Shown piece after piece: positions 9,253 through 24,004 of a stretch of DNA of 64,000 nt. Origin of the DNA: Acutalibacter sp. 1XD8-36 (lineage in GTDB: Bacteria; Bacillota; Clostridia; Oscillospirales; Acutalibacteraceae); the NCBI RefSeq assembly GCF_009917525.1, contig NZ_QZDU01000003.1, positions 124,001 to 188,000 of the forward strand. Reading direction: 5' to 3'. A program made the translations under genes and the position numbers. The notes beneath the pieces were generated by a model, which saw nothing but the letters and a program-made list of their open reading frames with translations, had not been told where the DNA came from and made no database searches. Position 1 is the stretch's first letter. Each line of letters opens with the position of its first letter.

Positions 9253-9336
9253 TGGTATCCTCCGTAAGCTTTGGTATTTTTGAACTGTATATATTTTCTT
9301 ATATTATTTCCGTTTCATGCACTCCCTATCGGCTCT

Positions 9337-9441
9337 TTATCGGGCGAGCAGGGCGGAGAAGACCGCCGCCAGCATTAAAAGCGCCAGCGCGCCGGCTATG
9401 ATACGGACGAGCATGGTGCGTCGGTCGGGTCGGGGCTTCAT
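9337..9441 (-). CDS. Small single-span membrane protein (34 aa)
   Basis: A 34-residue frame: a basic start (MKPRPDRRTMLVR) followed by one hydrophobic helix rich in Ala and Leu. It has its own promoter (9482-9510) and a good ribosome site (AAAGGAG, 8 bases before ATG), which is better support than most frames of this size have. It resembles in layout the tiny one-helix proteins often seen in Clostridia, but I do not recognise a named family. It ends 84 bases before metG on the same strand with no clear terminator between, so the promoter may also serve metG. Confidence 0.55.
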   Translation of the reverse strand: MKPRPDRRTMLVRIIAGALALLMLAAVFSALLAR

Positions 9442-9481
9442 TGTGCACGCTCCTTTTCTGTGTAAGCCGTAATTAAACTAC

Positions 9482-9510
9482 ATTTTACCATTTTTTTTTC
9501 AATTTGTAAA
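9482..9510 (-). promoter_or_regulatory. Promoter for the small membrane protein and perhaps metG
   Basis: On the minus strand TTTACA and TAAAAT are separated by 17 bases, upstream of the AAAGGAG ribosome site of the 34-residue frame. Confidence 0.65.
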
Positions 9511-9526
9511 CACTTGAGCGGAGAAA

Positions 9527-9552
9527 AAAGCGCTCCCGAAAGGGAGCGCTTT
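9527..9552 (-). terminator. Terminator of the TM2-DUF3267 operon
   Basis: An 11 bp stem (AAAGCGCTCCC / GGGAGCGCTTT) with a GAAA tetraloop, followed on the minus strand by TTTCTCC. It lies 6 bases after the DUF3267 gene. Confidence 0.85.
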
Positions 9553-9557
9553 CTGTG

Positions 9558-10130
9558 CTATTTTGGCAGATACCAGTAGGAATTGAAACCGTGGTTATAT
9601 ACCCTCCCGCCCTTTGGCACCTGGGTGAGGGTGTTGAAAATATTGTAGTAGTCCCCGGCGCCCATGCCGGTGCAGATGGCGCCGAACATGGCGGTGGCAA
9701 GGTTTGGCAGGGCCATACCTATTATATAGGGAGTGAGGCCGAACACCAGGTTTGGGAGCAGGCTCATGAAGATAAAGCGGGATTTGCTCATGTCCTCGGT
9801 GCCTATGACGAAGAGCATGCCCTGACGCAGGTTCGTGTAGAGGTACACGTCCTCCCTGAAGCATACGGCGTGCAGCAGCTCGTGGGGCAGCAGGACAGCC
9901 ATGGGCAGGAAGCACCCGGCTATCATCTGGCCTGTGTTGAAGGTGCCCTGGCAGCGCTGAAACGCCGGTGCCGCAAGCAGTATTAAAATGAGCACGCACA
10001 GGCCGTTGGCTATCAGAGACAGGGCCTTGGTATCCCTGACTTCCCTAAACTGGACCGCTCTCGAACGTCGAGGGGCACGGGGCAGGGAGGCGGGGTCCAG
10101 GTTATAGGTGCCTTTATAATGCAGTCGCAT
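9558..10130 (-). CDS. DUF3267 domain protein, zincin-like membrane protein
   Basis: A 190-residue protein with several membrane segments and an HELLH motif (LLPHELLHAV), the HExxH zinc-binding signature of metalloproteases, located next to a membrane helix as in DUF3267 proteins. Family members are predicted membrane-embedded zincins; no substrate is known. A second acidic ligand further along cannot be assigned with confidence. The gene starts 3 bases after the TM2 gene upstream and ends at the hairpin 9527-9552, so the three minus-strand genes form one operon. Confidence 0.75.
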   Translation of the reverse strand: MRLHYKGTYNLDPASLPRAPRRSRAVQFREVRDTKALSLIANGLCVLILILLAAPAFQRCQGTFNTGQMIAGCFLPMAVLLPHELLHAVCFREDVYLYTNLRQGMLFVIGTEDMSKSRFIFMSLLPNLVFGLTPYIIGMALPNLATAMFGAICTGMGAGDYYNIFNTLTQVPKGGRVYNHGFNSYWYLPK

Positions 10131-10133
10131 ATG

Positions 10134-10814
10134 TCAGTCCCTGAGAATGACGCCGTTGCCGTCGAAGCGGGCGCCGTTTGAGGAGAGAATCGTTACACCC
10201 TCGATGAAGGCCCATACTGCGGTGGCGGCAGTGGCGAGGCCGCAGGTGAGCAGGCCTCCGGCAAGGCTGAGCACAAGCTGGATTACGCCCCGGGAGTTAA
10301 AGCCCAGGTAGAAGTTATGCACGCCGAAGATTCCCAGTATGATAGCCAGAAGGCCTGCCGCAAGGCGGCTCTTCTGCTGGTAGCCCGCGGGGGGAGTAGT
10401 GTATATGGGCTGCCGGGGAGGTTCCGGGCGGTAGCTCTGGGTGGTGTAGTTTGGGGGCTGATAGCCGGAGTAGGGCTGGGAATAGGGCTGCTGGCCGGAG
10501 CTTTGGGGATGGCCGGGGTCGCCGGAGGGCTGGGTGTTAAAATTATATACGTACTGGTTCTGAACCGTGGGCTGGGGCTCCACAGGGGGCTCCGGCGCAT
10601 GGGGCGGCTCGGTGGTGAACTCGATAGCCGGGGGCTCCGGCTGAGGGTCCAGGGTGAGCTGGGGGGTGGGCTTTTCCCAGGCTGGGGTCGGGTCCGGCGC
10701 TGGAGCCTGGGGAGCGGGCTCAGAGGCCTGACCCTCCTGTGGGACGGTGGCAGCGGGCTCCGCGGGTGCCTCGGGCTGCTGGGGGTTAAGGTCCTTGTTT
10801 TCCATATCGTTCAT
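10134..10814 (-). CDS. TM2 domain protein with long proline-rich N terminus
   Basis: A 226-residue protein. Residues 1-145 are disordered and rich in Pro, Gln, Glu and later Tyr (repeated YxxP and PPxY-like patches). Residues about 150-226 form a TM2 domain: two helices around KSRLAAGLLAIILGIFGVHNFYLG and a second around GLATAATAVWAFIEGVTIL. TM2 domains pair two membrane helices with a short conserved turn; bacterial functions are unknown. AAGGAGG sits 8 bases before the ATG. A shorter TM2 paralogue lies immediately upstream, so this is probably a local duplication with a grown N terminus. Confidence 0.85.
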   Translation of the reverse strand: MNDMENKDLNPQQPEAPAEPAATVPQEGQASEPAPQAPAPDPTPAWEKPTPQLTLDPQPEPPAIEFTTEPPHAPEPPVEPQPTVQNQYVYNFNTQPSGDPGHPQSSGQQPYSQPYSGYQPPNYTTQSYRPEPPRQPIYTTPPAGYQQKSRLAAGLLAIILGIFGVHNFYLGFNSRGVIQLVLSLAGGLLTCGLATAATAVWAFIEGVTILSSNGARFDGNGVILRD

Positions 10815-10827
10815 GAGTGCTGCCTCC

Positions 10828-11160
10828 TTAGTCTTTCAGGTAGACGCCGTTGGCGTCGGTGTTTATACGTCCGTCCAGAAGCTTAATGCCGTCCAGTATG
10901 CCCCATATCTGCATGACGATGGCTCCAACGCCGCAGGTCAGGATAGATATGAGCAGTTGCATAAGGCCCCTGGAGGTGTTGCCAAGGTAGAAGCTGTGTA
11001 CGCCGTAGGCCCCAAGGATTATTCCGAAAATACCCGCAGCGATACGGCTGCGCTGCATGTAGCCGGGAGGCGGGTCAATGCCCGCCTGAGGCTGGTATTG
11101 TGGGGGATTGTACATGGGCTGCTGGCCCTGGGGCTGGTAGCCGTTATTATAGTCTGCCAT
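10828..11160 (-). CDS. TM2 domain protein (short paralogue)
   Basis: A 110-residue protein with a short Gln/Pro/Tyr-rich start (YQPQGQQPMYNPPQY) and a TM2 domain: RSRIAAGIFGIILGAYGVHSFYLG and a second helix before GILDGIKLLDG. The C-terminal stretch matches the end of the neighbouring TM2 protein, including the final LKD versus LRD, which supports duplication. It is the first gene of the operon, behind a promoter at 11215-11244. Confidence 0.85.
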   Translation of the reverse strand: MADYNNGYQPQGQQPMYNPPQYQPQAGIDPPPGYMQRSRIAAGIFGIILGAYGVHSFYLGNTSRGLMQLLISILTCGVGAIVMQIWGILDGIKLLDGRINTDANGVYLKD

Positions 11161-11214
11161 AATCTCTGTCGCTCCTTTATACCGGCTTTTGCCGTGATTC
11201 TTTTCCGTAGGTAT

Positions 11215-11244
11215 ATCTTAGCACGAGTAATGTTAAGAAAGCAA
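11215..11244 (-). promoter_or_regulatory. Probable promoter of the TM2 operon
   Basis: On the minus strand TTGCTT and TAAGAT are separated by 18 bases, 55 bases before the first TM2 gene. The match is moderate. Confidence 0.5.
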
Positions 11245-11444
11245 GGGGGTGGGGGCAAAAGTAAGGTATTCTTAATCAGTAGAAAGGTTTTTGGCGGCGG
11301 AGGACCGGTTTTTTGAAAAAATATTTATTTTTTTTCGCGGAAGTTCGCCTTTTTTACGAAACTTTGGGGTGTTTTCGAGGTATGGTTGAGAGGAGGTTTC
11401 ATGAGCATAAAAAACAGCGGAAATCTGAAAGGAGTGGTTAGGCC

Positions 11445-12569
11445 TTGTTTCGGAAGAAGCAGGAGAGGCCCGCGGCACTGAGCGTGCAGGCGAGGCCGGC
11501 GGGCGGGTTTAACGGGCTGCCCCTTGGAGCGGGGGAGCGGGAGCTGTACAGGGCTCTCAGGCAGTCGGTGCCCATAATCGACGCGGCTGTGTATAAGCTG
11601 AGGCGGCTTATAGGGGATTTTAAGGTGAGCTGCCCGGACTTAAATGTACAGGAAAGGCTGCAGAGGTTTTTGGACGGCGTAAAGGTAAACGCCGGGGGCA
11701 CAGGGATAAATGAGTTTCTGGGGATATACCTTGAGGAGCTCATCACCTATGGGAACGCCGTGGGGGAGATGGTGGCCTCCGGGGGACAGATAGGGGCGCT
11801 GTATAACGCGGGGCTGAGGGACCTGGAGCTGGAGGACGACGGCTCTTTGGGCATTAAGGTGTATGTGCTGGAGCCCGGCGGGCGCAGGGAGTGCACGTGC
11901 AGGGAGCTGCTGCTTGTCTCGGCGCTGAACCCTGAGGCGGGGTCCCTCTGGGGGGTGTCGCTGCTGAGGGGGCTGCCCTTTGTGAGCTCGGTGCTCACGC
12001 AGATATACCAGACCCTGGGGACGAACTGGGAGCGCATGGGGAACGTGAGGTTTGCTGTGACCTGCAGGCCGGACGGCGCCCCGGGCGGGGCCCTGGAGCG
12101 GGCCAGGCAGATGGCGAAGGAGTGGAAGAACGCTATGAGCTCCAGGGAGCCAAGGGACTTTGTGGCGGTGGGGGATGTGTCCATCAAAGCCATAGGGCCT
12201 GATAACCAGCTGATGGAGAGCGAGGTACCTGTAAGGCAGATGCTGGAGCAGATAGTGGCGAAGCTGGGGCTGCCGCCGTTCCTTTTAGGGCTTAGCTGGT
12301 CCTCCACGGAGAGGATGTCCAGCCAGCAGGCGGATGTGCTCACAAGCGAGCTGGAGGCATACAGGAGGGTGCTGACCCCGGTGGTGCTGAAGGTGTGCAG
12401 GACCTGGCTGATGCTTGAGGGGCTGCCTGTGGAGTGCGGGATTGTCTGGGACGAAATCACAATGCAGGACGAGGTGGACCATGCCAACGCGAGATATTAT
12501 ACGGCGAGGGCCAGGAAGCTTGAGAGGGAGCTGGAAGCAGAGGACAGAGAGAGGGGGAGCGTTTTATGA
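11445..12569 (+). CDS. Phage portal protein
   Basis: A 374-residue protein with the features of HK97/PBSX-type portals: an N-terminal helical region, a central domain with IYLEELITYGNAVGEMV, and a C-terminal helical clip and stem region (PPFLLGLSWSSTERMSSQQADVLTSELEAYRRVLTPVVLKV). Portals form a dodecameric ring at one capsid vertex through which DNA normally passes. The TTG start has GAAAGGAG 10 bases upstream. Its last bases overlap the next start (ATGA). The 284 bases upstream contain AT-rich stretches but no convincing promoter. A 26-codon frame at 11401 with a close AGGAGG overlaps the start and could be a leader peptide. Confidence 0.85.
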   Translation: MFRKKQERPAALSVQARPAGGFNGLPLGAGERELYRALRQSVPIIDAAVYKLRRLIGDFKVSCPDLNVQERLQRFLDGVKVNAGGTGINEFLGIYLEELITYGNAVGEMVASGGQIGALYNAGLRDLELEDDGSLGIKVYVLEPGGRRECTCRELLLVSALNPEAGSLWGVSLLRGLPFVSSVLTQIYQTLGTNWERMGNVRFAVTCRPDGAPGGALERARQMAKEWKNAMSSREPRDFVAVGDVSIKAIGPDNQLMESEVPVRQMLEQIVAKLGLPPFLLGLSWSSTERMSSQQADVLTSELEAYRRVLTPVVLKVCRTWLMLEGLPVECGIVWDEITMQDEVDHANARYYTARARKLERELEAEDRERGSVL

Positions 12570-13501
12570 AAGAGGGGCTTGTGATGAAAGCGGCGGGAGT
12601 GCCGGGGAGGGAGGACATGGAGGCTATAAACAGGTACACCAGAAGGGCGTATGGGCCGGAGGAGGTGTATATGTTTTCCCTGGTGCTCTGTGACAATGAG
12701 ATAGACCGGGACTTTGAGAGGTTTTCTGTTGAGAGCCTTGAAAGGCTGCGGGAGCTGTTTTTGGGGAAGACCTGTATCTTTGACCACGAGCGCAAAAGCG
12801 CCAATCAGACGGCCCGCATATACCATACGGAGCTGGAGCAGGCAAAGGGGGAAATAACCCAGGCCGGGGAGGGGCTGGTGCGCCTTACAGCCAGGGCGTA
12901 CCTCCCCAGGACCCAGGGGAATAAGGAGACCATCGAGCTTATTGAGAGCGGGATTTTAAAGGAGGTGAGCGTGAGCTGCTCGGTAAAGCGCGGGGTCTGC
13001 GGCATTTGCGGAAAGGAGAGCTGTGAGCACAAAAAGGGCGGCACCTATGGGGGCAGGCTGGCCCATACGGTACTTACCGAGCCTACGGACGCCTATGAGT
13101 GCTCCTTTGTGGCTGTGCCGGCCCAGAGGGGCGCGGGAGTGGTTAAGAGCGCGAAGGTGGAGAAGCTGCTAAGTGGTGAGTATGGAGGGGAGGTGACTCT
13201 CAGCAAGGCCCAGGTGACGGAAATAGGAGAGCGGTTTAAACGTCTCTCCGAGAAGGCGGGCTGGGGAGAGCGCTACCGGATGAAGCTGGAGCAGGGCGTG
13301 CTGAAGTACAGCGCCATCGTGCAGCCGGATATGCCAAGGGCTGTGATGGAGTCGGCGGTAAAGGGGCTGTCCATTGAGGAGCTGTCCGCTATGGAGAAGA
13401 CCTATAGCGGGATGGCCCAGAAGATACTGCCACTAAAGCCCCAGCTTATGCCGGCAGCCTGCGGCAGGAAGGAGAGCAATAACAGGGACTTTAAGATTTG
13501 A
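12566..13501 (+). CDS. Phage prohead protease-like protein
   Basis: A 311-residue protein in the position of a prohead protease or scaffold, between portal and capsid. The N-terminal half carries segments typical of phage capsid proteases (VLCDNEIDRDFERFSVESLERL, then IFDHE and an ESGILKEVSVSCSVKRG core), with His in FDHE and Ser in VSVS as candidate catalytic residues. A Cys cluster (CGICGKESCEHKKG, about residues 150-162) could bind zinc, and the C-terminal 100 residues are helical and scaffold-like. The protease assignment is by position and weak motif similarity. It overlaps the portal gene by four bases. Confidence 0.6.
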   Translation: MKEGLVMKAAGVPGREDMEAINRYTRRAYGPEEVYMFSLVLCDNEIDRDFERFSVESLERLRELFLGKTCIFDHERKSANQTARIYHTELEQAKGEITQAGEGLVRLTARAYLPRTQGNKETIELIESGILKEVSVSCSVKRGVCGICGKESCEHKKGGTYGGRLAHTVLTEPTDAYECSFVAVPAQRGAGVVKSAKVEKLLSGEYGGEVTLSKAQVTEIGERFKRLSEKAGWGERYRMKLEQGVLKYSAIVQPDMPRAVMESAVKGLSIEELSAMEKTYSGMAQKILPLKPQLMPAACGRKESNNRDFKI

Positions 13502-13551
13502 GTAATATACAAAAAATAAAAAATACACTAAATTTTCAGGAGGATTTAGCT

Positions 13552-14562
13552 ATGGCTTATTATGAGAATATTTCTTTGGAGAAGGGCATGTACACAACCC
13601 CCGGCAAGAGCTTCAGCCAGGTGCTGGAGGAGCTGGACAGCTCGGAAAACTACCGGGGAACGCCGATGGAGGGTCTGGACGCGTACCAGCGGCAGCTCAA
13701 GCGTTTTGCCATTAAGGTGAGCGGGCCGGAGTCCGGAACGCTGGAGAGCTTTTTCCAGAGCACCCAGAGCGCTGCACTGTTCCCGGAATATGTGGCCCGG
13801 GCGGTGAAGCAGGGCATGGAGAGCGGCACAAGGGCCGAGGACCTGGCGGCGACGGTCACCAGAATAGACGCCATGGACTATAGGAGCATAGTAGCCGAGC
13901 CTGAGACCGAGGGCGATACCGGCGAGCTAAAGATTGTGGCAGAGGGGGCGCTGCTGCCCAGCACGAAGATACATACCAGCGCAAACCTGGTGAGGCTGCA
14001 AAAGCACGGCCGTATGCTTGTGAGCACCTATGAGGCGCTGAGGTTCCAGAAGCTGGACCTGCTGACGGTGACTCTGCGGCAGATAGGGGCTTATATGGCA
14101 GGGGCCCAGGTGAAGGACGCGGTAGAGGTGCTGATGAACGGCGAGGACGGGAATACCCCGCTGACGTTTAAAAAGGGCACGCCCAATTACGGCGACTTCA
14201 TCGGGCTCTGGGGGGAGCTGGCCCCCTACGAGCTGAACACGGTGGTGGCAGGGACGGCGGCTATGCAGAAGCTTTTGCAGGTGGAGGAATTTAAGGACGC
14301 CCAGGCGGGGATGAACTTCCAGGGGACCGGGACCCTGTGCACTCCCCTGGGGGCGAAGCTGATACATGTGCCGGGGATGGCTGCGGATAAGATAGTGGTG
14401 CTGGACAGGGGCTGCGCATTGGAGATGGTGCAGTCGGGGGACATAAACCTGGACTGCGATAAGCTGATAGACAGGCAGCTGGAGCGGGCAGGCATCAGCG
14501 TTATCAGCGGGTTTGCAAGGATATTCAAGGACGCGGTGTCCGGCCTGGACTGCGGCGCGTAA
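13552..14562 (+). CDS. Phage major capsid protein-like
   Basis: A 336-residue protein with an HK97-fold pattern: a helical N terminus, then FPEYVARAVKQGMESGTRAEDLAATVTRIDAMDYRSI (the spine and E-loop region), ALLPSTKIHTSANLVRLQKHGRMLVSTYEALRF, and a C-terminal P-domain ending in ISVISGFARIFKDAV. The ATG at 13552 has AGGAGG 9 bases upstream, so it was preferred to a TTG at 13498 that overlaps the previous gene. A dedicated strong ribosome site fits the high dose needed for a structural protein. It is followed by the only long gap in the cluster. Confidence 0.75.
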   Translation: MAYYENISLEKGMYTTPGKSFSQVLEELDSSENYRGTPMEGLDAYQRQLKRFAIKVSGPESGTLESFFQSTQSAALFPEYVARAVKQGMESGTRAEDLAATVTRIDAMDYRSIVAEPETEGDTGELKIVAEGALLPSTKIHTSANLVRLQKHGRMLVSTYEALRFQKLDLLTVTLRQIGAYMAGAQVKDAVEVLMNGEDGNTPLTFKKGTPNYGDFIGLWGELAPYELNTVVAGTAAMQKLLQVEEFKDAQAGMNFQGTGTLCTPLGAKLIHVPGMAADKIVVLDRGCALEMVQSGDINLDCDKLIDRQLERAGISVISGFARIFKDAVSGLDCGA

Positions 14563-14613
14563 CTGACAGAATGAACTAGGCTGAAGGCGGGGGCGCAAAG
14601 CGCGAAGGGAGTC

Positions 14614-14720
14614 AAGGGAGATATGTCCCCCTTGCGGGTCTAGGGCGGCTTCGCATGGCGAATGCCAGGAGCCCTAGTGGGGTTTGGGACGACTTCGCAC
14701 AGCGAATGCCAAAAGTCCCA
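14614..14720 (+). repeat. Three hairpins in the capsid-connector gap
   Basis: The 215-base gap after the capsid gene holds a CAAGGG/CCCTTG hairpin (14614-14636) and two related cruciform elements at 14641-14676 (outer TAGGGC/GCCCTA) and 14685-14720 (outer TGGGAC/GTCCCA). Both of the latter contain an inner TTCGC/GCGAA stem followed by ATGCC. They resemble dispersed palindromic repeats; they could also stabilise or end the head transcript. Confidence 0.6.
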
Positions 14721-14777
14721 GCCGCCGTAGGCCGTAAATATAATCCTAAAAAGGAAACGGAGAAAGGGGTAACAGCC

Positions 14778-15164
14778 ATGACTATAAGCACAGAAAACGT
14801 AGCCGAGAAATTCAGGCTCTACAGCGGCGAGGAGCCTGACGGCAATGAGCCCGTAAGGGAGGCTCTTTGCAGGGAGCTTTGCAGGGAGTGCGCGGCGTGG
14901 GTGGCGGCAAGAATAAAGCCCGAGCTCACGGATACCGAGGGCACCGAGAGCGAAAGGAACGCCCTGGAATGCCTGGCGGCAGCGGAAGCCTTCTGGCAGC
15001 TGGCGGCGCTGGACCAGGCGGCGGCACCCCAGGGGGTGGGCTCAGGCGAGATAAAAATACAGCTTGGTGACAGGCTGGGGGCGGCACAGCGGCTGCGGGA
15101 CGAAAAGGGGCTTGCCTGCCGGGGGCTGACAGTTGAGGACGGATTTTATTTCGGAACGGCATGA
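14778..15164 (+). CDS. Phage head-tail connector-like protein
   Basis: A 128-residue mainly helical protein following the capsid gene, the usual place of the gp6/YqbG-type connector. It has helices around NEPVREALCRELCRECAAWVAARIKPEL and ALECLAAAEAFWQLAALDQA, then a short C-terminal part rich in charged residues. The ATG at 14778 has GAAAGGGG upstream and was chosen over an upstream in-frame start at 14655, whose reading crosses the hairpin repeats. Connector identity is positional inference; the protein itself is not clearly recognisable. Confidence 0.5.
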   Translation: MTISTENVAEKFRLYSGEEPDGNEPVREALCRELCRECAAWVAARIKPELTDTEGTESERNALECLAAAEAFWQLAALDQAAAPQGVGSGEIKIQLGDRLGAAQRLRDEKGLACRGLTVEDGFYFGTA

Positions 15165-15180
15165 GAGGAGGTAAAGGGTC

Positions 15181-15864
15181 ATGGGGACGGCTAGGGAGAT
15201 TTTGCTGGGCCTGCTTGAAATGTTCCGGGCGGCTATGCCTGAGGTGGAGTTTCGGGAGGCCTTAAGCGCGAAGGAGGCCTTCAGGCCGGGAGCCCGGGTG
15301 TGCGTTATGGGCGCGGTCTCGAAGGAGAGCGAGCAGGGCGGCGAGTGGAGCGGCAAGCTGGCCTTTACAGTGTATGTGCCAAGGGGCAGGGGCAGCGCCG
15401 ATGATGTTCTGAATAAAATGGCGGAGCTTGCAAAGGCGGGAGAGCCTTTATTTGCGGGAGTTGAGCGGGGGGCGGCGGCCTTAGACAAGGCTGGCGGAGC
15501 CGTAGCCGCCGGGTGCGTGTTCACCTTCCTGCGGGCCGGGAGCGCCGGAGGGAAGAAGGTGAGATACCCGGTGGAGATAAACGGCGAGAGATGTACTGCC
15601 GCAGGCTGGAAGGTATCGGAGAAGGAGTCCGGGGAGGGGATAAGGGCCATTGGAGAGAGCGAGCCTTTCTATTATAAAGGAAGCCGGGGATTTACGGTGG
15701 AGGTTCAGGGGCTGGATTTTGAGAGCCCGGAGGAGCTTGAGGGCTTTACCCTGAGGCTTGGGAGCCAGAGGGTGATGTACACAGGGTGCAGGTGGAGGAG
15801 CCTCTCGGCAGAGGGCAGCGGGGTGCTGACTGCCGGGAGGAGAATAGAGATAGAGGGGGAATGA
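15181..15864 (+). CDS. Phage-like protein, possible tail-terminator fusion
   Basis: A 227-residue protein I do not firmly recognise. Residues 1-120 read like a tail-terminator or head-completion protein: an N-terminal helix (REILLGLLEMFRAAMPEVEF), alternating strands (GKLAFTVYVPRG), then a helix and a closing strand (GCVFTFLRA). Residues 128-227 are strand-rich with several glycine turns (YPVEINGERCTAAGW, FYYKGSRGFTVEVQGLDF, GFTLRLGSQRVMYTGCRW), a pattern compatible with a tube-type beta-sandwich. If so, this would combine two tail functions in one chain. That reading is inference and needs structure prediction. ATGA overlap with the next frame. Confidence 0.5.
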   Translation: MGTAREILLGLLEMFRAAMPEVEFREALSAKEAFRPGARVCVMGAVSKESEQGGEWSGKLAFTVYVPRGRGSADDVLNKMAELAKAGEPLFAGVERGAAALDKAGGAVAAGCVFTFLRAGSAGGKKVRYPVEINGERCTAAGWKVSEKESGEGIRAIGESEPFYYKGSRGFTVEVQGLDFESPEELEGFTLRLGSQRVMYTGCRWRSLSAEGSGVLTAGRRIEIEGE

Positions 15865-15959
15865 GCATGGAGAGCCTGGAGCGGGCGGAGGAGCTGAGCA
15901 GGGAGATTGAACGGGACAGCAGGAGGTATCCCGGGACTATAGGGGAGGCGCTGAGATGA
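15861..15959 (+). CDS. 32-residue coupled frame between connector and LysM genes
   Basis: The frame overlaps the preceding stop (ATGA at 15861) and its own stop overlaps the next start (ATGA at 15956), so it is translationally coupled on both sides. The 32-residue product is highly charged and helical (MESLERAEELSREIERD). It stands where a contractile phage would carry tail chaperones and a tape-measure gene of one to several kilobases. No family is recognised. Confidence 0.55.
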   Translation: MSMESLERAEELSREIERDSRRYPGTIGEALR

Positions 15960-16471
15960 GGCTGATGACTATGAGCTTCAAGGGGCTTTGCTGGCAGGTA
16001 AACCCCACTGAGCTGAATGTGGAGTACGCCCAGAATATCCGGGAGACCACCCTGCCCTTTGCCGGGAGCAGGCTGACGGACCTGGGGGTGAAAAAGCGGC
16101 AGGTGACCGGCAAGGGGTATTTTGTGGGCAGTACCTGCATGGAGCAGTGGAGGAAGCTTGAGGAGCTCTTTGGGCAGGGCGGTCCTGGAAACTTGCAGCT
16201 TCCGGGGCTGGAGCCCTTTAGGGCTGTGCTCTCGGGGCTCAGGCTGCTGGGGGAGGAAGGAGCGGATATTGTGAAGTACAGCTTTGCTTTTACCGAGGTA
16301 TGGGCCGGAGAGAGCTATAGGGGCCAGGGGGTGCACAGGGCCGAGGCCGGGGAGAGCCTTTGGGACTATGCCGGAAGGTATGGCTGGGACATGGAGCTGC
16401 TGCGGGCGGCTAATCCCCATATCAGGGATATCGCCTGCCTGGAGCTTGGGGAGGAGGTGTTTGCGCCGTGA
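15956..16471 (+). CDS. LysM domain phage tail/baseplate protein (XkdP/gp53-like)
   Basis: A 171-residue protein. The N-terminal 110 residues (FKGLCWQVNPTELNVEYAQN ... YSFAFTEVW) match the family of small contractile-tail proteins that sit between tape measure and hub in PBSX-type phages. The last 50 residues form a LysM repeat (VHRAEAGESLWDYAGRYGWDMELLRAANPHIRDIACLELGEEVFAP), a peptidoglycan-type binding module. In PBSX the equivalent is XkdP, thought to help attach the hub. Coupled to both neighbours by 4-base overlaps. Confidence 0.8.
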   Translation: MRLMTMSFKGLCWQVNPTELNVEYAQNIRETTLPFAGSRLTDLGVKKRQVTGKGYFVGSTCMEQWRKLEELFGQGGPGNLQLPGLEPFRAVLSGLRLLGEEGADIVKYSFAFTEVWAGESYRGQGVHRAEAGESLWDYAGRYGWDMELLRAANPHIRDIACLELGEEVFAP

Positions 16472-17382
16472 TTTACTGGGGGGTAATGCAGGACGGCGGG
16501 AGAATGCTGCTGGGGGACCCGAGGGAGGCGGCGCTCTCCTTTGACTGGGATGCTCCGGCGGACCAGCTAAAGGCGGTCTTCCCGGCTGACAGAATTTGGG
16601 AGGATATCAACGAGGTCTGTATGTATGAGGGCGGCAAGGGGGTCTTCAGGGGAATAGTGGACGAGCAGAACACCCGGCTCACCTCTGAGGGGCTGTTTGT
16701 GGAGCTGGTGTCCAGGAGCAGGGAGGCACTGCTTTTGGACAATGAGGCCGAGCCGGTGATTATTAAGAGGCCCTCCCTGGAGAGCATACATAAAAGGCTT
16801 ATAGAGCCGCTGGGGTTCGGGCGGATAAAGGGGGAGAGCGAAAGCGTGCCGGGGGAGCTGAGGGTTGAGAAGGGGGCCTCCTGCTGGCGGGTGCTCTGTG
16901 ACTTCTGCGGGGAGTATTTGGGGACCGAGCCCTATGTTGACTTTGAGGGGGACATACGCTGCGAGGGGCTGGGGGAAGTGAGGGCGGAGCTTCGGGACGT
17001 GATAAGCGCGGAGCTCCAGAGGCTGCCCTATAAAAGGCTGAGCGCGGTGTGGAAGCAGGGCTACCGAGGGGGCTACGACACCCTTTACAGCGACCCGGAG
17101 GCACCTGTAGTGCGCAGGAGATATGTGAGCGCCCAGAGCGGCAGGGACCCGAGGGGAATGCTTGAGGAGGCCAAAAGGGACAGCGGGCTATTGACGGTGG
17201 TATGCGCCGGGGGTGTCTGGCCCTTAAGGGGGATAATAGCTGACGTGTCTGTGCCGGGGCTTGGGAGGTTTGAGGGCTGCCGGGTGCGGCGGGGCACGTA
17301 TTTTAGGGATGGAAACGGTGAGCGGACAAGATTAGTGCTGGAAAGGGGGAAAGGGGATGTGGCTGACCAGGAAGCTTTTTGA
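16468..17382 (+). CDS. Baseplate hub-like protein (XkdQ/gpD type)
   Basis: A 304-residue protein with the order expected of a phage hub: an N-terminal beta region (ALSFDWDAPADQLKAVF, then GVFRGIVDEQNTRLTSEGLFVELVSRSREALLLDNEA), a middle segment resembling the LysM-like insert of late control D proteins (IKRPSLESIHKRLIEPLGF), and a C-terminal beta region that ends before the spike gene. Hubs form the trimeric centre of the baseplate to which the spike attaches. GTG start overlapping the previous stop (GTGA); a 26-base overlap with the next gene. Confidence 0.7.
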   Translation: MIYWGVMQDGGRMLLGDPREAALSFDWDAPADQLKAVFPADRIWEDINEVCMYEGGKGVFRGIVDEQNTRLTSEGLFVELVSRSREALLLDNEAEPVIIKRPSLESIHKRLIEPLGFGRIKGESESVPGELRVEKGASCWRVLCDFCGEYLGTEPYVDFEGDIRCEGLGEVRAELRDVISAELQRLPYKRLSAVWKQGYRGGYDTLYSDPEAPVVRRRYVSAQSGRDPRGMLEEAKRDSGLLTVVCAGGVWPLRGIIADVSVPGLGRFEGCRVRRGTYFRDGNGERTRLVLERGKGDVADQEAF

Positions 17383-17683
17383 GGGCGGCGGCGTGAGGCT
17401 GCACAGCGGCAGGGTAGAGGAGGCCGGGGGCTTCTCGGTGCAGGGGGAGAGCCTGTTTAAGGAGCCGGAGCAGCTTCTGCCCTATGGACTCATGAGCGTT
17501 GCCGAGGCGGGGAAGCAGGCGGTAATGCTGGACGGCTACTGCGCCGGGGTAGCCGGAGTCCCGGACAGCGGGCTGCAGGCGGGTGAGACCAGGCTGTACT
17601 CGGCGGGGGGCGCGGAGATATGCCTTTTAAACGACGGCAGGGTGGTTATAAACGGACAGGCCTTTGAGCCAAAGGAGGGTTAG
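17357..17683 (+). CDS. Baseplate spike/assembly protein V-like
   Basis: A 108-residue protein. Its C-terminal part, LQAGETRLYSAGGAEICLLNDGRVVINGQAF, matches the OB-fold-to-needle junction of gpV and Mu gp45-type spike proteins, where the repeated turns lead into a triple beta-helix. The usual longer needle is missing, so the protein is short for the family (about 180-220 residues). ATG with GAAAGGGG upstream, inside the end of the hub gene. Confidence 0.6.
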   Translation: MWLTRKLFEGGGVRLHSGRVEEAGGFSVQGESLFKEPEQLLPYGLMSVAEAGKQAVMLDGYCAGVAGVPDSGLQAGETRLYSAGGAEICLLNDGRVVINGQAFEPKEG

Positions 17684-17686
17684 AGC

Positions 17687-18019
17687 TTGGACACGGTTGT
17701 AAAGGACGGCGGCTTCGTGCCGGGACCTGGGGGGCTTCCGGCAGTGGCCGTGGGGCTTGAGGAGACGCTGAACTATGTGCGGCTGAGCCTGGCGGTAAGG
17801 CAGGGGGAGTTCCCATATGACAGGGGCATGGGCAGCAGGCTGCACCTGCTTGACAGGGAGGAGGAGCATGCCCCGGAGCGGGCTTTGGCTATGGCGAACG
17901 AGGCGCTGCTGTGGCTGCCGGGGGTGCGGGTGACTGAGGTTTTTATAAGCGGCGGGGGCATGAGCTTTAGGGTGTCGGCCCCGGCGGGAGAGGGGAGTGT
18001 TGAGCTTGGAGAGCTATAG
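17687..18019 (+). CDS. Baseplate wedge protein, gp25/XkdS-like
   Basis: A 110-residue protein with the gp25/gpW pattern: ETLNYVRLSLAVRQGEFPYDRGMGSRLHLL, where the gp25 fold has its conserved loop, then ALAMANEALLWLPGVRVTEVFIS. In T4 gp25 locks the sheath to the baseplate and contains the conserved EPR-type interface. Its presence without any sheath gene nearby is notable. TTG start with AAAGGAGGG 7 bases upstream. It overlaps the next gene by 23 bases. Confidence 0.7.
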   Translation: MDTVVKDGGFVPGPGGLPAVAVGLEETLNYVRLSLAVRQGEFPYDRGMGSRLHLLDREEEHAPERALAMANEALLWLPGVRVTEVFISGGGMSFRVSAPAGEGSVELGEL

Positions 18020-19064
18020 GGAGATACTTGAGAGGATGAAAGGGGAGTACACAGAAAGGAGCGGCAGCAGGCCGGAGGATGTTTCGGATATAGGAATCAG
18101 GCTGCAGGTGATGGCTGGGGAGGTGTACAGATTACAGGCGCGGATGGACTGGCTGTGGCGGCAGGCCTTCCCACAGACTGCCGACGGGGAGCGGCTGGAC
18201 ATGCACGGCATGGAGCGGGGCGTAAAGCGCAGGGGCAGCGAGAAGGCCAAGGGAACCCTGGTATTCTCAAGATATGTGCCGGTGAGCTTTGACCTGGTGA
18301 TACCAAAGGGGACTGTCTGCGCTTCCTCGGGGGAGGCGGCAGAGTATGAGACCACAGAGGAGGCTGTGCTCGGCGCGGGGTCGGTAACGGTAGCTGTACC
18401 GGCTATGGCGGTGACAGGGGGCAGCGGTGGGAACGCCGCGGCGGGGTATATAAACACCCTGGTGAGTGAAGTAAACGGCATAAACTATGTGACAAACCCC
18501 AAGGCCTTTTCCGGCGGCACGGACCCGGAGCAGGACGGGGACTACAGGAAGCGGATACTTGAGGGTATCGACAGGCTTGAGGGCTTCGGCAGCCCGGGTT
18601 ACTTTGAGGGCATAGCTTTGGAGCACGAGGGCGTGCGCTCGGCCCAGGCGGGGGTCTCAGGGGACGGCTCCATGGTGACGGTCTACGTCTGGGGAGACGG
18701 GGCGGCTGTCTCCGAGGAGGCGGCCGCTGCCCTGCAGGAGGAGCTTAACGGCAGGTGCCCGGTGGGTGTGGAGGCTGTGGTCCAGTCCGCCGGAACAAAG
18801 AAGGTGGCGGTGGGCGCGGCGCTGAAAATGCGGGAGGGCGTGGAGTTCAGCGCCGTAACCGCCTCCCTTACAAATGCTGTGAAGGCCTGGCTTGGGAAGC
18901 GCTCTGTGGGGGAGAGCGTGTATATGGCGGACATACAGCGGCTCATTATGGACACGGAGCCGGGCGTGGGCAGGGTCAACTTTATTGACTCCAGCCGGGA
19001 CCATGAGGGTACGCTGGGCATAGTGCCAACGGCCGGCATGGTGGTATTCTCGGAGGTGAAGTGA
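17997..19064 (+). CDS. Baseplate J/gp47-like protein
   Basis: A 355-residue protein of the baseplate J family. Hallmarks include RMDWLWRQAFPQTADGERLDMHGMERGV near residue 40-70, GTLVFSRYVPVSFDLVIPKGTVCAS, GGSGGNAAAGYINTLVSEVNGINYVTNPKAFSGGTDPEQDGDYRKRILE, and a C-terminal domain (SVGESVYMADIQRLIMDTEPGVGRVNF). Full family length, with no sign of decay. In phages it forms the outer wedge of the baseplate next to gp25. Confidence 0.9.
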   Translation: MLSLESYREILERMKGEYTERSGSRPEDVSDIGIRLQVMAGEVYRLQARMDWLWRQAFPQTADGERLDMHGMERGVKRRGSEKAKGTLVFSRYVPVSFDLVIPKGTVCASSGEAAEYETTEEAVLGAGSVTVAVPAMAVTGGSGGNAAAGYINTLVSEVNGINYVTNPKAFSGGTDPEQDGDYRKRILEGIDRLEGFGSPGYFEGIALEHEGVRSAQAGVSGDGSMVTVYVWGDGAAVSEEAAAALQEELNGRCPVGVEAVVQSAGTKKVAVGAALKMREGVEFSAVTASLTNAVKAWLGKRSVGESVYMADIQRLIMDTEPGVGRVNFIDSSRDHEGTLGIVPTAGMVVFSEVK

Positions 19065-19525
19065 TGGACAGCGTTGAGAATATGAGGAAGATACTGAACG
19101 GCTCTGGGGCCTATAGGCTGGACGGCGGCACCATGATAGACCAGGAGCTGGAGGCCTACGGCGCGGGGCTCAGGCCGGTTGAGGAGAGCCTTGTAAGGCT
19201 GGAGGGGGATATTTTTGCCGCCACCGCCGGGCCGGAGCGCCTGGGTATCTGGGAGCGCTTATACAGGCGGCAGTCCTCCTGGGCGGACATTGACACCCGC
19301 AGGCGCGGCGCTGCCGCCGCCCTCTCCCGTCGGGGCGGGCCGGTGCTCATGAGGGATATGGAGGGCATACTGGACGCCGCGGGGATAAGGGGGAGCGCTG
19401 GCCTTGAGGAAGGGAAGATGGTCATACATGTTCAGGAGTACCTGGGTATCACGGAGGCCGAGGCCCGGAAGGTGGCGGAAAGGATGATGCCTGCGGGGGT
19501 CAGGTGGGAGATTCGGGCGGATTGA
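19064..19525 (+). CDS. Phage tail protein I-like (YmfQ/XkdU, DUF2313-type)
   Basis: A 153-residue protein following baseplate J, as XkdU follows XkdT in PBSX. It has an N-terminal helical half (QELEAYGAGLRPVEESLVRLEGDIFAATAGPERLGIWERLYRR) and a C-terminal half with HVQEYLGITEAEARKVAERMMPAGVRWEI, matching the 'LEK..PAH' type ending of the family. The ATG shares a base with the previous stop (TGATG); a GTG three bases earlier is possible. It normally bridges wedge and fibre, but no fibre gene follows: the next gene is an unrelated DUF2442 gene behind its own promoter. Confidence 0.7.
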   Translation: MDSVENMRKILNGSGAYRLDGGTMIDQELEAYGAGLRPVEESLVRLEGDIFAATAGPERLGIWERLYRRQSSWADIDTRRRGAAAALSRRGGPVLMRDMEGILDAAGIRGSAGLEEGKMVIHVQEYLGITEAEARKVAERMMPAGVRWEIRAD

Positions 19526-19550
19526 CTATGCTTTTTGAATCTGGTAGAAT
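19522..19550 (+). promoter_or_regulatory. Promoter of the DUF2442 gene
   Basis: TTGACT and TAGAAT are separated by 17 bases, with TGG before the -10 (extended -10). It begins at the stop of the last baseplate gene and sets the right border of that cluster. Confidence 0.75.
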
Positions 19551-19582
19551 GGAAAAAACAACATGTGAGTCGGGGTGCGCAT

Positions 19583-19831
19583 ATGATACCAAAAATCAAA
19601 GCTGTTACGCCGCTGCCGGATTTTTTTCTGCGTGTGGTTTTTGATGACGGAAAGTCGGTCCTATATGATGTGAAGGAGGATATGGAGCAGATAGAGAGCT
19701 ACAGGGATTTGCGCTCCATCACGGGCCTTTTCAATCAGGTCCAGCTTGACCAGAGCCGGACCTGTGTGTTCTGGAATGACAGGATAGACCTGCCGAGTGA
19801 CACTATTTATGAGTATGGCAGGGTGCAGTAG
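19583..19831 (+). CDS. DUF2442 family protein
   Basis: An 82-residue protein from the ATG at 19583. It has the DUF2442 pattern: IKAVTPLPDFFLRVVFDDGKSVLYDVKEDM, then FNQVQLDQSRTCVFWNDRIDLPSDTIYEYG. Family members are small, often found near toxin-antitoxin or mobile genes, and have no proven function. A TTG-initiated longer frame from 19535 is ruled out because the -10 box at 19545-19550 lies inside it. It is monocistronic between its promoter and the 19854-19890 terminator. Confidence 0.85.
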   Translation: MIPKIKAVTPLPDFFLRVVFDDGKSVLYDVKEDMEQIESYRDLRSITGLFNQVQLDQSRTCVFWNDRIDLPSDTIYEYGRVQ

Positions 19832-19853
19832 TACGAGTATTTGAGCAAAAACA

Positions 19854-19890
19854 GAAAGTCCCCCGGAGGTTTTGCCTGCCGGGGGCTTTC
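19854..19890 (+). terminator. Terminator after DUF2442
   Basis: GAAAG and CCCCCGG pair with CCGGGGG and CTTTC across a 12-base loop, with one bulged T, followed by TTGC. Confidence 0.75.
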
Positions 19891-19961
19891 TTGCATTATC
19901 CCCCAATCCCCCGGCATATATTTATACCATCCAATCACATACCTGCAAGGAGTGTATGAAT

Positions 19962-21095
19962 ATGAAAAAAACTGTCGCTTTGATGCTGGCCCTGCTGCTG
20001 GCTGTAATTTTCCTGCCGGGGCTTGCCGCCCGGGGGGAGGGGGTTGAGATATCCGCGCCGTCGGCTGTGCTTATGGAGGCGGGGACCGGGCGGGTGCTCT
20101 TTGAGAAGAACTCCCGGGAGGTGAGGCCATGCGCGTCCATTACCAAGGTCATGACCCTGTGCCTTACCTTTGACGCTTTGGAGAGCGGCCAGCTTTCCCT
20201 TGGGGACCAGCTCTCGGCCTCGGCCCACGCTGCGTCTATGGGGGGCTCGGATATCTGGCTCAAAGAGGGGGAGCTCATGAGCGTGGACGACCTGATAAAG
20301 GCCACGGTGATAATGAGCGCCAACGACGCGGCTGTGGTACTGGCTGAAAACGTGGCCGGGAGCGAGGAGTCCTTTGTGCAGAGGATGAACGAGCGGGCCG
20401 GGGAGCTGGGCATGGAGGATACTGTATTTAAAAACTGCAACGGCCTGGACGAGGAGGGGCATGTCACCAGCGCCTATGACGTGGCGCTTATGAGCCGGGA
20501 GCTTATAAGGCATGAGAGGATAACCGACTACACGCTGACCTGGATAGACTACGTGAGGGACGGCGCGACCCAGCTTGTGAACACCAACAAGCTCATACGC
20601 AGCTATCAGGGCATAACGGGCCTGAAGACCGGCACGACCTCCCAGGCGGGGAGCTGCATAACCGCTACCGCCGAGAGGAACGGCCTGAGGCTCATTGCCG
20701 TGGTGCTGGGCGCGGGGAGCACCGACGACAGGTTCAAGGACGCCGCAGCCCTTCTGGACTACGGCTTCGGCGGCTGGTCGGTGACGGTGCCGGAGAGCCC
20801 GGAGCTGCCCATGGTGCCGGTAAAGGGGGGCATGGAGGAGACTGTGGGGGCAGAGGCCGGGGAGAGCCCGGAGATACTCATGGAGTCCGCCTCGATGGGG
20901 GAGATTGAGGAGCAGATAAGCTGGGTGCCGGAGCTGAAGGCCCCGGTGAAGAAGGGAGATATTATAGGGAAGATAACCTATTCCGCAGGGGGCGAGGTGG
21001 TGGCGAAGGTAGATATCACCGCCGCCGGGGACGTTCCCGCCATAAGCTTTTCCTCGGCCTTTACCTACCTGCTGTATAGCTTTCTTGGCCTTTAA
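19962..21095 (+). CDS. D-alanyl-D-alanine carboxypeptidase (PBP5/DacF type)
   Basis: A 377-residue serine peptidase of family S11. It has a signal peptide (MKKTVALMLALLLAVIFLPG), the active-site SITK at residues 59-62, SAN at 119-121 and KTG at 222-224, and a C-terminal beta domain ending in an amphipathic, weakly hydrophobic tail for membrane association. It trims the terminal D-Ala of peptidoglycan stem peptides outside the membrane. The ATG at 19962 has AAGGAG at 9 bases; an ATG two codons earlier is too close to that site. In spore formers DacF-type enzymes also act on the cortex. Confidence 0.92.
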   Translation: MKKTVALMLALLLAVIFLPGLAARGEGVEISAPSAVLMEAGTGRVLFEKNSREVRPCASITKVMTLCLTFDALESGQLSLGDQLSASAHAASMGGSDIWLKEGELMSVDDLIKATVIMSANDAAVVLAENVAGSEESFVQRMNERAGELGMEDTVFKNCNGLDEEGHVTSAYDVALMSRELIRHERITDYTLTWIDYVRDGATQLVNTNKLIRSYQGITGLKTGTTSQAGSCITATAERNGLRLIAVVLGAGSTDDRFKDAAALLDYGFGGWSVTVPESPELPMVPVKGGMEETVGAEAGESPEILMESASMGEIEEQISWVPELKAPVKKGDIIGKITYSAGGEVVAKVDITAAGDVPAISFSSAFTYLLYSFLGL

Positions 21096-21128
21096 AAAAA
21101 GTTTTTAGCCAATCTTCGGAAACTTGCC

Positions 21129-21157
21129 TTGCAAAATGCTCAGACTTATTGTACAAT
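21129..21157 (+). promoter_or_regulatory. Promoter of pgi
   Basis: TTGCAA and TACAAT are separated by 17 bases, 70 bases before the pgi start. Confidence 0.75.
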
Positions 21158-21227
21158 ATAGGTTAGAAAAAAGTTACCGCCCCATAGCGGCATGTTTGCC
21201 GCGGGGCCTAGCAAAGGAGTTTTGAAA

Positions 21228-22568
21228 ATGCCGCTAAAACTGGACGACAGGTATTTAAAAGGCTTTGTTTCACAGCACGAGTACGAGGGTATCGGGGCGC
21301 AGGTAAAGTGCGCTTCGGAACTGCTCATGTCCGGCAAGGGCCAGGGCAACGACTTCTTAGGATGGGTCACCCTGCCTGAGGACTACGATAAGGAGGAGTT
21401 CGCGCGAATCAAGTCCGCAGCCGAGCGCATAAAGAAGAACTCCCAGGTGTTCATCGTCATCGGTATCGGCGGCTCCTATCTGGGGGCGAGGGCCGCTATC
21501 GAGTTTCTGAAGTCGGATAAGTACAATAACCTGCCAAAGGACACCCCGGATATCTACTTCACCGGGAACTCAATCAGCTCCACCGCCCTGCAGGAGCTGG
21601 TGACAATCTGTGAGGGCAGGGACGTGTCCATTAACATGATTTCAAAGTCAGGCACCACCACCGAGCCCGCCATAGCCTTTAGGGTCTTCAGGGAGCTTCT
21701 GGAGAAGAAGTACGGCAAGGAGGGCGCAAGGGAGCGTATCTTCTGCACCACGGATAAGGCCCGGGGCACCTTAAAGCAGCTTGCCGACAAGGAGGGCTTT
21801 GAGACCTTCGTTGTGCCCGACGACGTGGGCGGGCGCTTCTCCGTGCTCACCGCCGTGGGCCTGCTGCCCATCGCCGTTGCAGGCTGCGATATCGACGCGC
21901 TTATGGGCGGCGCGCGCAAGGCAATGAAGGCCTATACGAGCACTGAGCTTGACGAGAACGACTGCTATAAGTATGCGGCTATCCGCAATATACTCTATAA
22001 TAAGGGCAAGTCCGTAGAGGTCATGGTGAGCTATGAGCCCTGCTACGCAATGATGAACGAGTGGTGGAAGCAGCTCTACGGCGAGAGCGAGGGCAAGGAC
22101 CAGAAGGGCCTGCTCCCTGCCTCGGTGGTCTTCTCCACGGACCTGCACTCCCTTGGGCAGTATATCCAGGACGGGCGCAGGCAGCTCTTTGAGACCGTGG
22201 TGCTCATCGACCAGCCCAAGCACCAGGTCACCCTTGGGAAGGACCCCACCGACGTGGACGGCCTCAACTACCTTGAGGGCCGCACCATGGCCTTTATAAA
22301 CGAGAAGGCCTTCGAGGGCACAGTGCTGGCCCATAACGACGGCGGCGTGCCCAACGTGGTGATACACGCCAGCGACTTCTCCGAGGACACCCTGGGCCAG
22401 CTTATATACTTCTTCGAGAAGGCCTGCGCCATCTCCGGCTACCTGCTGGGGGTCAACCCCTTCGACCAGCCCGGCGTTGAGAGCTATAAGAAGAACATGT
22501 TCGCCCTGCTGGGCAAGCCGGGGTATGAGGACCAGAAGGCCGCCCTGGAGGAGCGTATCGGGCGCTGA
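21228..22568 (+). CDS. pgi: Glucose-6-phosphate isomerase
   Basis: 446 residues, the length of the short Bacillota-type isomerases. Diagnostic segments are [38 protein letters not shown] (phosphate-binding SIS motif), [19 protein letters not shown] and a C-terminal [22 protein letters not shown] with the signature lysine region. It interconverts glucose-6-phosphate and fructose-6-phosphate in glycolysis. The ATG at 21228 has AAAGGAG 9 bases upstream; an in-frame ATG at 21192 has no ribosome site. Confidence 0.97.
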
Positions 22569-22637
22569 TAAAATTTTGGGACGAAACGGTCCGCTGTGCG
22601 GGCTGTCAAAATATTACAAAACAAAGGAGAGTTAAAT

Positions 22638-23051
22638 ATGGTTACTCTTTTAACAGGAAAAAAAGGTTCCGGCAAGACAAAGAAGCTCATTGAGCTGGTG
22701 AACGTGGCCCTGGAGAAGTCCAACGGCAATGTGGTCGTCATCGAGAAGGGCAAGCAGATGACCTTCAACATCCCCTACGCCGCCCGCCTGGTGGACTCCG
22801 ACGCCTATGACATCAAGGGCGCGGAGACCCTGCAGGGCTTCATCTGCGGCATCTGCGCGGGAAACTACGACGTGACCGACATCTTCGTGGACTCCACCCT
22901 GAAGATTACCGGCACCGGCGCCGCCGAGATAGAGGGCCTGGTAGCGGAGCTCAAGAAGCTCAGCGAGACCGCCGACACCAATATCGTCCTCTCGGTCTCC
23001 GCCGCCGAGGAGGATATACCCGCCTCTATGATGGACTGCGTGCTGAAATAA
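22638..23051 (+). CDS. Small P-loop protein (Clostridia conserved type)
   Basis: A 137-residue protein opening with a Walker A loop, LLTGKKGSGKTKKLIELV. It then has alternating strand-helix segments including TDIFVDSTLKITG (possible Walker B-like strand) and TNIVLSVSAAEEDIP at the C terminus. Similar proteins are sometimes labelled PilT-like, but no pilus genes are present and the protein is far too short for a PilT ATPase, so that name should not be taken as function. AAAGGAGAG lies 8 bases before the ATG. Its role is unknown. Confidence 0.75.
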   Translation: MVTLLTGKKGSGKTKKLIELVNVALEKSNGNVVVIEKGKQMTFNIPYAARLVDSDAYDIKGAETLQGFICGICAGNYDVTDIFVDSTLKITGTGAAEIEGLVAELKKLSETADTNIVLSVSAAEEDIPASMMDCVLK

Positions 23052-23054
23052 GTC

Positions 23055-23083
23055 TTGACAAATCACATTTTGGAAACTATAAT
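23055..23083 (+). promoter_or_regulatory. Consensus promoter of the DUF177-rpmF operon
   Basis: TTGACA, 17 bases, TATAAT: both hexamers match consensus exactly, as expected for a ribosomal protein unit. Confidence 0.9.
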
Positions 23084-23150
23084 ATACTTTGTGAAAGTTC
23101 GGCAATTCTAGGCCGGAGGCTTTCGTGAAGCTGCCAGAGGTATATGCGAT

Positions 23151-23636: not shown

Positions 23637-23678
23637 CTCTGAAAAAATCCATCTATAAAAATTAAGGAGGTGCTGAAA

Positions 23679-23861: not shown

Positions 23862-23935
23862 GCGCACTTCGTCGTACAAGGATGCGTAAGCGAGCTTTAT
23901 TAAACGAGGGAGCTCAGCCTGTTTTAAAGGACGAG

Positions 23936-23971: not shown

Positions 23972-24004
23972 GTTACCGGAAGATATATGGAAGGGGGCGG
24001 CGGT

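Follow-up and report, generated by a model that had tools for sequence, protein, structure and literature searches.

A capsid-baseplate gene cluster of gut Clostridia as the probable half of a split, domesticated element resembling a gene transfer agent

What is a set of phage capsid genes for when it runs directly into baseplate genes, with no terminase, sheath or tape measure recognized between or beside them? Such a cluster lies at positions 11445-19525 of a 64,000-nucleotide stretch of the Acutalibacter sp. 1XD8-36 genome (contig NZ_QZDU01000003.1, positions 124,001 to 188,000; hereafter the window), where eleven contiguous and intact genes on one strand lead from portal to gpI (Table 1). 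A first-pass annotation of the window, which counted twelve genes, had suggested a domesticated particle with little tail. The domestication stands, and the cluster probably represents one half, that of capsid and baseplate, of a domesticated element that is split between loci, has a reduced tail, passes mostly by vertical descent and resembles a gene transfer agent (GTA), a class of particle recognized mainly from Alphaproteobacteria and Brachyspira. Because relatives carry a TerL gene next to the cluster, one cluster gene probably encodes a tube-like domain, and a terminase-lysis set lies elsewhere in the same genome, this description fits better than that of a capsid with no packaging motor.

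Matches to Pfam and PHROGs families and a comparison with shuffled sequence both bear out the cluster as real: when the segment was shuffled 50 times by mononucleotide, the longest plus-strand open reading frame (ORF) reached 250 residues (mean longest, 154), against 374, 355, 336-354, 311 and 304 residues for the longest real frames. Six of the ten gene junctions overlap (by 4, 4, 4, 26, 23 and 4 bases) and four are gaps (92, 16, 91 and 3 bases), so that the earlier statement that nearly all of them overlap by 4-26 bases was too strong; the overlaps fall to five if the capsid gene starts at ATG 13552, which is the more likely start since it is the one used in relatives and is preceded by AGGAGG, the frame being open from TTG 13498. 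Only two genes, g4 and g5, separate capsid from LysM gene. No sheath, tape measure or terminase was recognized inside the cluster with Pfam and PHROGs, and no genome-wide search for sheath or tape measure was made; nor did any of the eleven genes match a toxin or cargo family, g4 being without any assignment. As would be expected of a GTA, phage-type capsid, portal and tail/baseplate genes are intact in the chromosome, and no integrase or replication gene was seen by eye among the frames at 8000-24000 or in the Pfam and PHROGs scans of the eleven genes.

Several assignments lean on weak matches or on relatives. The head-protease-position protein has matches to head and protease families at E 0.1-0.2, and its protease role is putative. 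The DNA_circ_N + LysM protein also matches phrog_184 (baseplate hub; E 6e-7). Spike and gpI are assigned by way of a representative relative, L036, whose counterparts match PF06890 (E 5.5e-4, below the Pfam cut-off) and PF10076 (E 2.4e-8, below cut-off; phrog_521, E 2.3e-12), respectively. PBSX, likewise domesticated, has the same LysM, hub, gp25/46, J and gp48-like order after its capsid genes; the cluster here differs in lacking sheath, tape measure and adjacent terminase, and in spanning ~8 kb rather than a full tail module. A PBSX-like defective phage was rejected since sheath, tube and long tape-measure genes do not lie between capsid and LysM/hub, where only g4 and g5 are found, and a tailocin was rejected since portal and capsid are present and conserved.

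The same gene set recurs widely. A capsid search of named genomes returned 60 loci, 57 with Clostridia-type titles (Clostridia, Clostridiales, Clostridiaceae, Oscillospiraceae, Ruminococcaceae or Ruminococcus) and three titled bacterium, and the recurrent order is TerS, TerL, portal, protease position, F6, capsid, F10, F14, F0a, F0b, LysM, hub, spike, gp25, J, gpI and a fibre-like gene, the last named by position only and without a Pfam match. The relatives' genes were called as greedy longest ORFs, which miss genes in GC-rich loci, so the family counts are lower bounds: at least 50 of the 60 loci carry the TerL family and at least 38 the TerS family (in L036, TerS matches PF03592 and TerL matches PF03237 and phrog_2). 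In a sample of the host's family with one genome for each of 100 genera, the capsid gene is present in 52, always as a single match; 14 of these 52 rows show a stop inside the aligned stretch, yet have open frames of 330-379 residues. In 49 of these 52 genomes, the terminase gene, here termed TerL1, is found a few kb upstream on the capsid-bearing contig, and the three that differ are the window genome (G000), G033 (TerL1 on another contig) and G079 (a capsid fragment); TerL1 is in two pieces in G046, and is present without a capsid match in G070. In the order, 21 of 197 genomes from six families, the window's included, have the capsid gene, again with one match each and no internal stop.

It is within the window's own genus that this arrangement changes. 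The capsid gene is present in 22 of 29 genus genomes, portal identity is 63-90%, and every uncut and unbroken cluster contains all eleven genes in order, in agreement with the gene-order check that the first-pass annotation had proposed. TerL1 lies beside the cluster in only three of the 22 (G111, G120 and G121) and is absent beside it in the other 19; in the window genome, the only terminases are unlinked to the cluster. When terminases were searched for in general, nearly all of the others proved to have a different strong TerL (G118 and G122 had weak matches only), and an orthologous gene, TerL2, is present in 18 of the 19 capsid-bearing genomes that lack TerL1, the exception being G122 (90% complete). 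In the genomes with TerL1, that search gave no further strong TerL, and two weak matches in G111 (E 2e-8 and 6e-5). This mutual exclusion among capsid-bearing genomes gives a one-sided Fisher value of 0.0026, not corrected for kinship. TerL2 is orthologous in 24 of the 29 genus genomes overall, and close matches within the family outside the genus are confined to G026 and G038 (~55% identity over most of the length). The statement that terminase is lacking thus holds at the locus only, and most likely a TerS2-TerL2 pair takes over the role of the portal-adjacent TerS-TerL in most of the genus, the packaging motor probably having been swapped and moved, not lost.

The neighborhood of TerL2 is that of a lysis module. 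In the window genome, TerS2-TerL2 is accompanied by a holin (PF05105), an amidase (PF01510) and an M23 peptidase (PF01551), and the set faces an XRE-S24 (LexA-like) regulator (PF00717) with palindromes of the form TTGACnnnnnGTCAA between the regulator and TerS2. The GGAGSGKS motif of TerL2 is kept in all 26 copies, two of them from other genera, and the acidic residues of the remaining motifs, which we take to be those of the ATPase and nuclease, in 24-26 of the 26. Holin, amidase and M23 peptidase occur together at the TerL2 loci of G000, G119, G102, G109 and G125, holin and amidase only in G101, G106 and G112, and holin in G107 (with part of an amidase), G108, G115 and G124; the 11 other loci gave no match to lysis genes, G114 among them having a holin-like small frame by eye. 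The earlier annotation had named a set of missing tail genes elsewhere in the genome as its main alternative; in part this was borne out, in that a terminase-lysis set does lie elsewhere.

Other candidates in the window genome were set aside. A TerL on contig C54 is not likely to be the motor because it sits in a siphophage-like prophage with portal-, capsid- and tape-measure-type neighbors of its own (by eye), and second Baseplate_J loci on C11 and C62 lie, as judged by their neighbors, inside other phage-like regions. Adjoining the TerL2 set, C62:47000-68000 (L101, L102) is prophage-like, with frames of baseplate and replication type, but inspection by eye showed neither a capsid nor a terminase gene belonging to it. 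The LexA-type box GAACNNNNGTTC has no occurrence in the window (0.58 expected). Upstream of the portal gene, positions 11161-11444 contain blocks that, when compared by eye, six genus genomes share in similar form, including AAAAGTAAGG followed by an ATTC.TAA block.

To gauge constraint, we used ratios of nonsynonymous to synonymous substitution rates (dN/dS; Nei-Gojobori, 10 chosen pairs), some rows of which use over-long frames (e.g. L148/L149) that inflate the values. For the cluster, dN/dS was 0.132 against G119 (1914 codons, the G119 contig being without the portal and protease-position genes), 0.179 against G102 and 0.164 against G109, and 0.099 to 0.482 in the seven other pairs, the highest values coming with over-long frames. 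The corresponding values for the TerL2 set and regulator were 0.084, 0.160 and 0.125, and for MetG 0.078, 0.090 and 0.102. The cluster is, on these ratios, under constraint less strict than that on MetG. Element and MetG trees agree for the main clades, and the TerL2 tree is broadly like that of MetG. Single copy, purifying selection and descent with the host lineage, as expected of a GTA, are thus seen together, with trees discordant for G111/G121 and G105/G126. The earlier argument for selection over random decay is upheld by the three close comparisons and by a single-copy gene shared among many genera.

The genes between capsid and LysM record how the tail may have shrunk. The g5 protein is the counterpart of two genes of relatives, F0a and F0b, which are also fused in, for example, L032, L035, L037 and L055. 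Foldseek searches with its AlphaFold2 model (predicted local distance difference test, pLDDT, 86.5) ranked highest a functionally uncharacterized Salmonella protein together with tail-terminator and neck proteins (Mu, phiCD508, lambda gpU), with six matches at E < 0.001 and the C. difficile tube protein CD1364 at rank 24. Profile searches gave lambda gpU at E 0.13 (weak) for g5, no phage protein for F0a, and XkdM-type tubes at E 0.02 for F0b among seven weak matches that include titin. From the model and these profiles, g5 is a probable fusion of a tail terminator and a tube-like domain. The g4 protein has no Pfam match, shares 18-25% identity and its position with F10 of other genera, and gives a helical model (pLDDT 82.9) for which a PDB search found no meaningful match.

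Sheath genes survive in a few deeper relatives, L049 (by Pfam) and L227 (below the Pfam cut-off), and a gene of L053 closely resembles that of L049; L227 may be phage or chromosome. All three loci have a tube-like gene of 130-158 residues and, at the tape-measure position, frames of 75-135 residues, which suggests that loss of the long tape measure came first and that of the sheath later. In the main clade, a tube-like protein is present and sheath is absent; in the window, tube-like domain and terminator are probably joined in one protein, making this lineage, by gene content, the most reduced form among the loci examined. Absence of sheath and tape measure from the cluster thus agrees with the first description, that of tube does not, and the sheath, tube and terminase genes that it had named as contrary evidence if found hidden or in close relatives did turn up in part: TerL adjacent in relatives, a probable tube in g5, and sheath in those few deeper loci. 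The portal gene was also retrieved on six IMG/VR contigs and the capsid gene in five GenBank records, and no long tape measure was found among the genes of all six contigs and three of the five records. Two of the GenBank entries are 'Bacteriophage sp.' records from human faeces (L230, MT835508.1; L231, MT835952.1); MT835508 carries ribosomal-protein genes and is therefore host chromosome, and such records may represent packaged host DNA or contamination.

Taken more broadly, these loci could belong to an old GTA family of gut Clostridia, present in about half of one family's sampled genera and in five other families of its order, that lost sheath and tape measure, came to join capsid to baseplate by a fused terminator-tube protein and, in one genus, exchanged its TerL for an unrelated one at a second locus with lysis genes and a LexA-like regulator; we offer this wider history tentatively, its chances being somewhat short of even.

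Several observations weigh against a split GTA-like element, and they are best considered with the alternatives that they favor. The capsid gene has no match in 48 of the 100 genera or in 176 of the 197 order genomes. F6 and F14, lost toward the window clade, were not found in the window cluster by tblastn and gap lengths (no genome-wide search was made), nor was the fibre-like gene by tblastn, so the particle may be incomplete. Of the seven genus genomes in which no capsid gene was matched, six do have TerL2 (G100, G110, G115, G117, G123 and G127), and among these a whole portal gene occurs only in G100 and a partial one in G115; TerL2 may therefore have another use or simply last longer than the capsid. 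No operator-like palindromes occur upstream of portal in the three genomes scanned. This persistence of TerL2, the want of an operator common to both loci, and structural genes still constrained in a genus where 19 of 22 clusters have no adjacent TerL1 are all consistent with a domesticated particle that packages nothing, i.e. an empty capsid-baseplate nanoparticle for killing, adhesion or protein cargo, with TerL2 belonging to a different element. We consider this unlikely, however: TerL2 is found in none of the three TerL1 genomes and in 18 of the 19 without TerL1, the portal is kept throughout the genus, and no gene matches a toxin or cargo family, though g4 is unassigned.

The capsid locus has also decayed in several species: it is frameshifted in G103, split in G109, and deleted in part in G115 and G100. 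Together with the stepwise gene loss toward the window clade, this would suit a prophage remnant in slow decay that has lost terminase, sheath, F6, F14 and fibre singly and whose other genes are not yet broken. Such a remnant is quite improbable given the low dN/dS of the ten pairs, the full-length frames of other genus clusters despite long divergence, and the single capsid copy in 52 of 100 genera; broken copies in relatives, which the first-pass annotation had treated as contrary evidence if nothing else were found, are a minority. A further difficulty lies in the trees. The TerL1 genomes G111, G120 and G121 group as a single clade in the element tree, between others that lack TerL1 (deep supports 91-98), and the MetG tree splits them, with G111 and G121 apart; G105 and G126 also move, so some transfer or misbinning is likely. 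Finally, G102, G109 and G106 have frames close to TerL2 that look by eye like serine recombinases and point to a phage or satellite origin; that the compact regulator, terminase and lysis set, without structural genes and present in six genomes lacking this capsid, is a chromosome-fixed satellite packaging itself in the capsids of this cluster or of a helper phage is nonetheless very unlikely, as it is orthologous in most of the genus with a tree broadly like MetG's, and no replication or integrase gene was recognized inside it.

The broken loci differ in form. In G103 (L158, contig C263), the capsid gene is in two pieces with a frame change at about codon 82-88. In G109 (L139/L140), one piece lies at C16:37769-38035 and the rest from 164075, ~126 kb away, and frames at the right border look phage-like by eye; the split could reflect a large inserted element or an assembly effect. 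The G115 deletion (L272, C1:655001-672000) runs from mid-portal to mid-g4 and that of G100 (L275, C129) from the protease position to hub, the remaining baseplate genes being open in both. G107 has, away from its cluster, a second capsid gene of 55% identity (L159, C72), and a genus-wide search for cluster genes found no others beside it.

If the cluster is half of a GTA-like element, the following course would account for it. A contractile phage of the Mu/PBSX type would have been the ancestor, its tail then shortened until the particle consisted of a capsid and a spiked baseplate of contractile type, linked from the portal by g4 and g5, with little or no shaft; the TerS-TerL pair beside the portal would have gone from most of the genus, TerS2-TerL2 at the second locus substituting for it. 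Stress would relieve the XRE-S24 regulator, TerL2 would fill capsids with pieces of the host chromosome, the holin, amidase and M23 genes would release the particles, and the baseplate would dock on a neighboring cell.

Table 1. Coordinates of the cluster genes and of the second terminase locus (window positions unless a contig is named; aa, amino acids)
Feature	Position	Strand	Basis or remark
Upstream region	11161..11444	+	Between divergent TM2-domain gene (PF05154) and portal gene; putative promoter region
Portal protein, 374 aa, TTG start	11445..12569	+	phrog_30703, E 8.9e-119
Head-protease-position protein, 311 aa	12566..13501	+	phrog_16951 (function unknown), E 9.3e-90
Major capsid protein, 336 aa from ATG 13552	13552..14562	+	phrog_3922, E 2.4e-82; PF25209, E 3e-12
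g4, connector-position protein, 169 aa (128 aa if start 14778)	14655..15164	+	Helical model, position
g5, probable tail terminator (N part) + tube-like domain (C part) fusion, 227 aa	15181..15864	+	Model and weak profiles
DNA_circ_N + LysM protein (baseplate/tail base), 171 aa	15956..16471	+	PF07157, E 9e-7; PF01476, E 3e-4
Baseplate hub, 304 aa	16468..17382	+	phrog_177, E 1.5e-8
Probable spike (Mu gp45-like), 108 aa	17357..17683	+	phrog_25991, E 0.002
gp25/GP46-like baseplate wedge, 110 aa	17687..18019	+	PF07409, E 4e-4 (below Pfam cut-off); phrog_43, E 8e-4
Baseplate J wedge, 355 aa	17997..19064	+	PF04865, E 3.8e-37; phrog_6, E 3.2e-60
gpI / Mu gp48-like wedge, 154 aa	19061..19525	+	No Pfam match of its own
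TerL2	C62:43209-44639 (own genome)	-	General terminase search
TerS2-TerL2	C62:43209-45043 (own genome)		TerS2, PF16677

The nearest published system that we found is FpGTA of Faecalibacterium, which PMC12946183 (2026) calls the first GTA in the human gut microbiome; it is a precedent for a two-locus GTA in gut Clostridia. As given there, it occupies two loci with lysis genes at the second, and has ~40 nm heads, no visible tails and ~9 kb of DNA. The two elements are alike in having a gut Clostridia host, a GTA-like character, and two loci with holin and endolysin at the second. FpGTA has baseplate genes but no visible tail, and small heads, as the particle proposed here would have. Judged by descriptions of gene division, they are cut differently: FpGTA locus I holds TerS, TerL, portal and capsid together, with baseplate at locus II, whereas here capsid and baseplate are together and the terminase sits with the lysis genes. 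PMC12946183 also names PBSX of Bacillus subtilis as GTA-like. Our search, which preprints and most subscription journals fell outside, found no published account of this element, including for Acutalibacteraceae with gene transfer agent. Among named phages, the nearest for TerL1 are deep-sea thermophilic phage D6E and Psychrobacillus phage PVJ1 (50% identity over 95-97% of the L036 query), free phages of ~49-53 kb for which the terminase alone was compared. For TerL2 it is Thermoanaerobacterium phage THSA-485A (52% identity over 47% of the query), a 42 kb phage, unlike the chromosomal TerL2, which has no structural genes nearby.

An order-wide, sheathless and split architecture of this kind would surprise a specialist. 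The loci can be lined up as a natural series from contractile tail down to baseplate stub, and the genus offers an apparent case of a packaging motor replaced by a non-orthologous one, both testable in cultured gut species. GTA-like DNA packaging has also been seen in other Ruminococcaceae, Oscillospiraceae and Christensenellaceae, the described cluster being from Faecalibacterium (PMC12946183); the element described here is a widespread candidate for such packaging and may explain some of it. If so, these bacteria would possess a DNA-delivery particle that works without a tail shaft and with an interchangeable motor.

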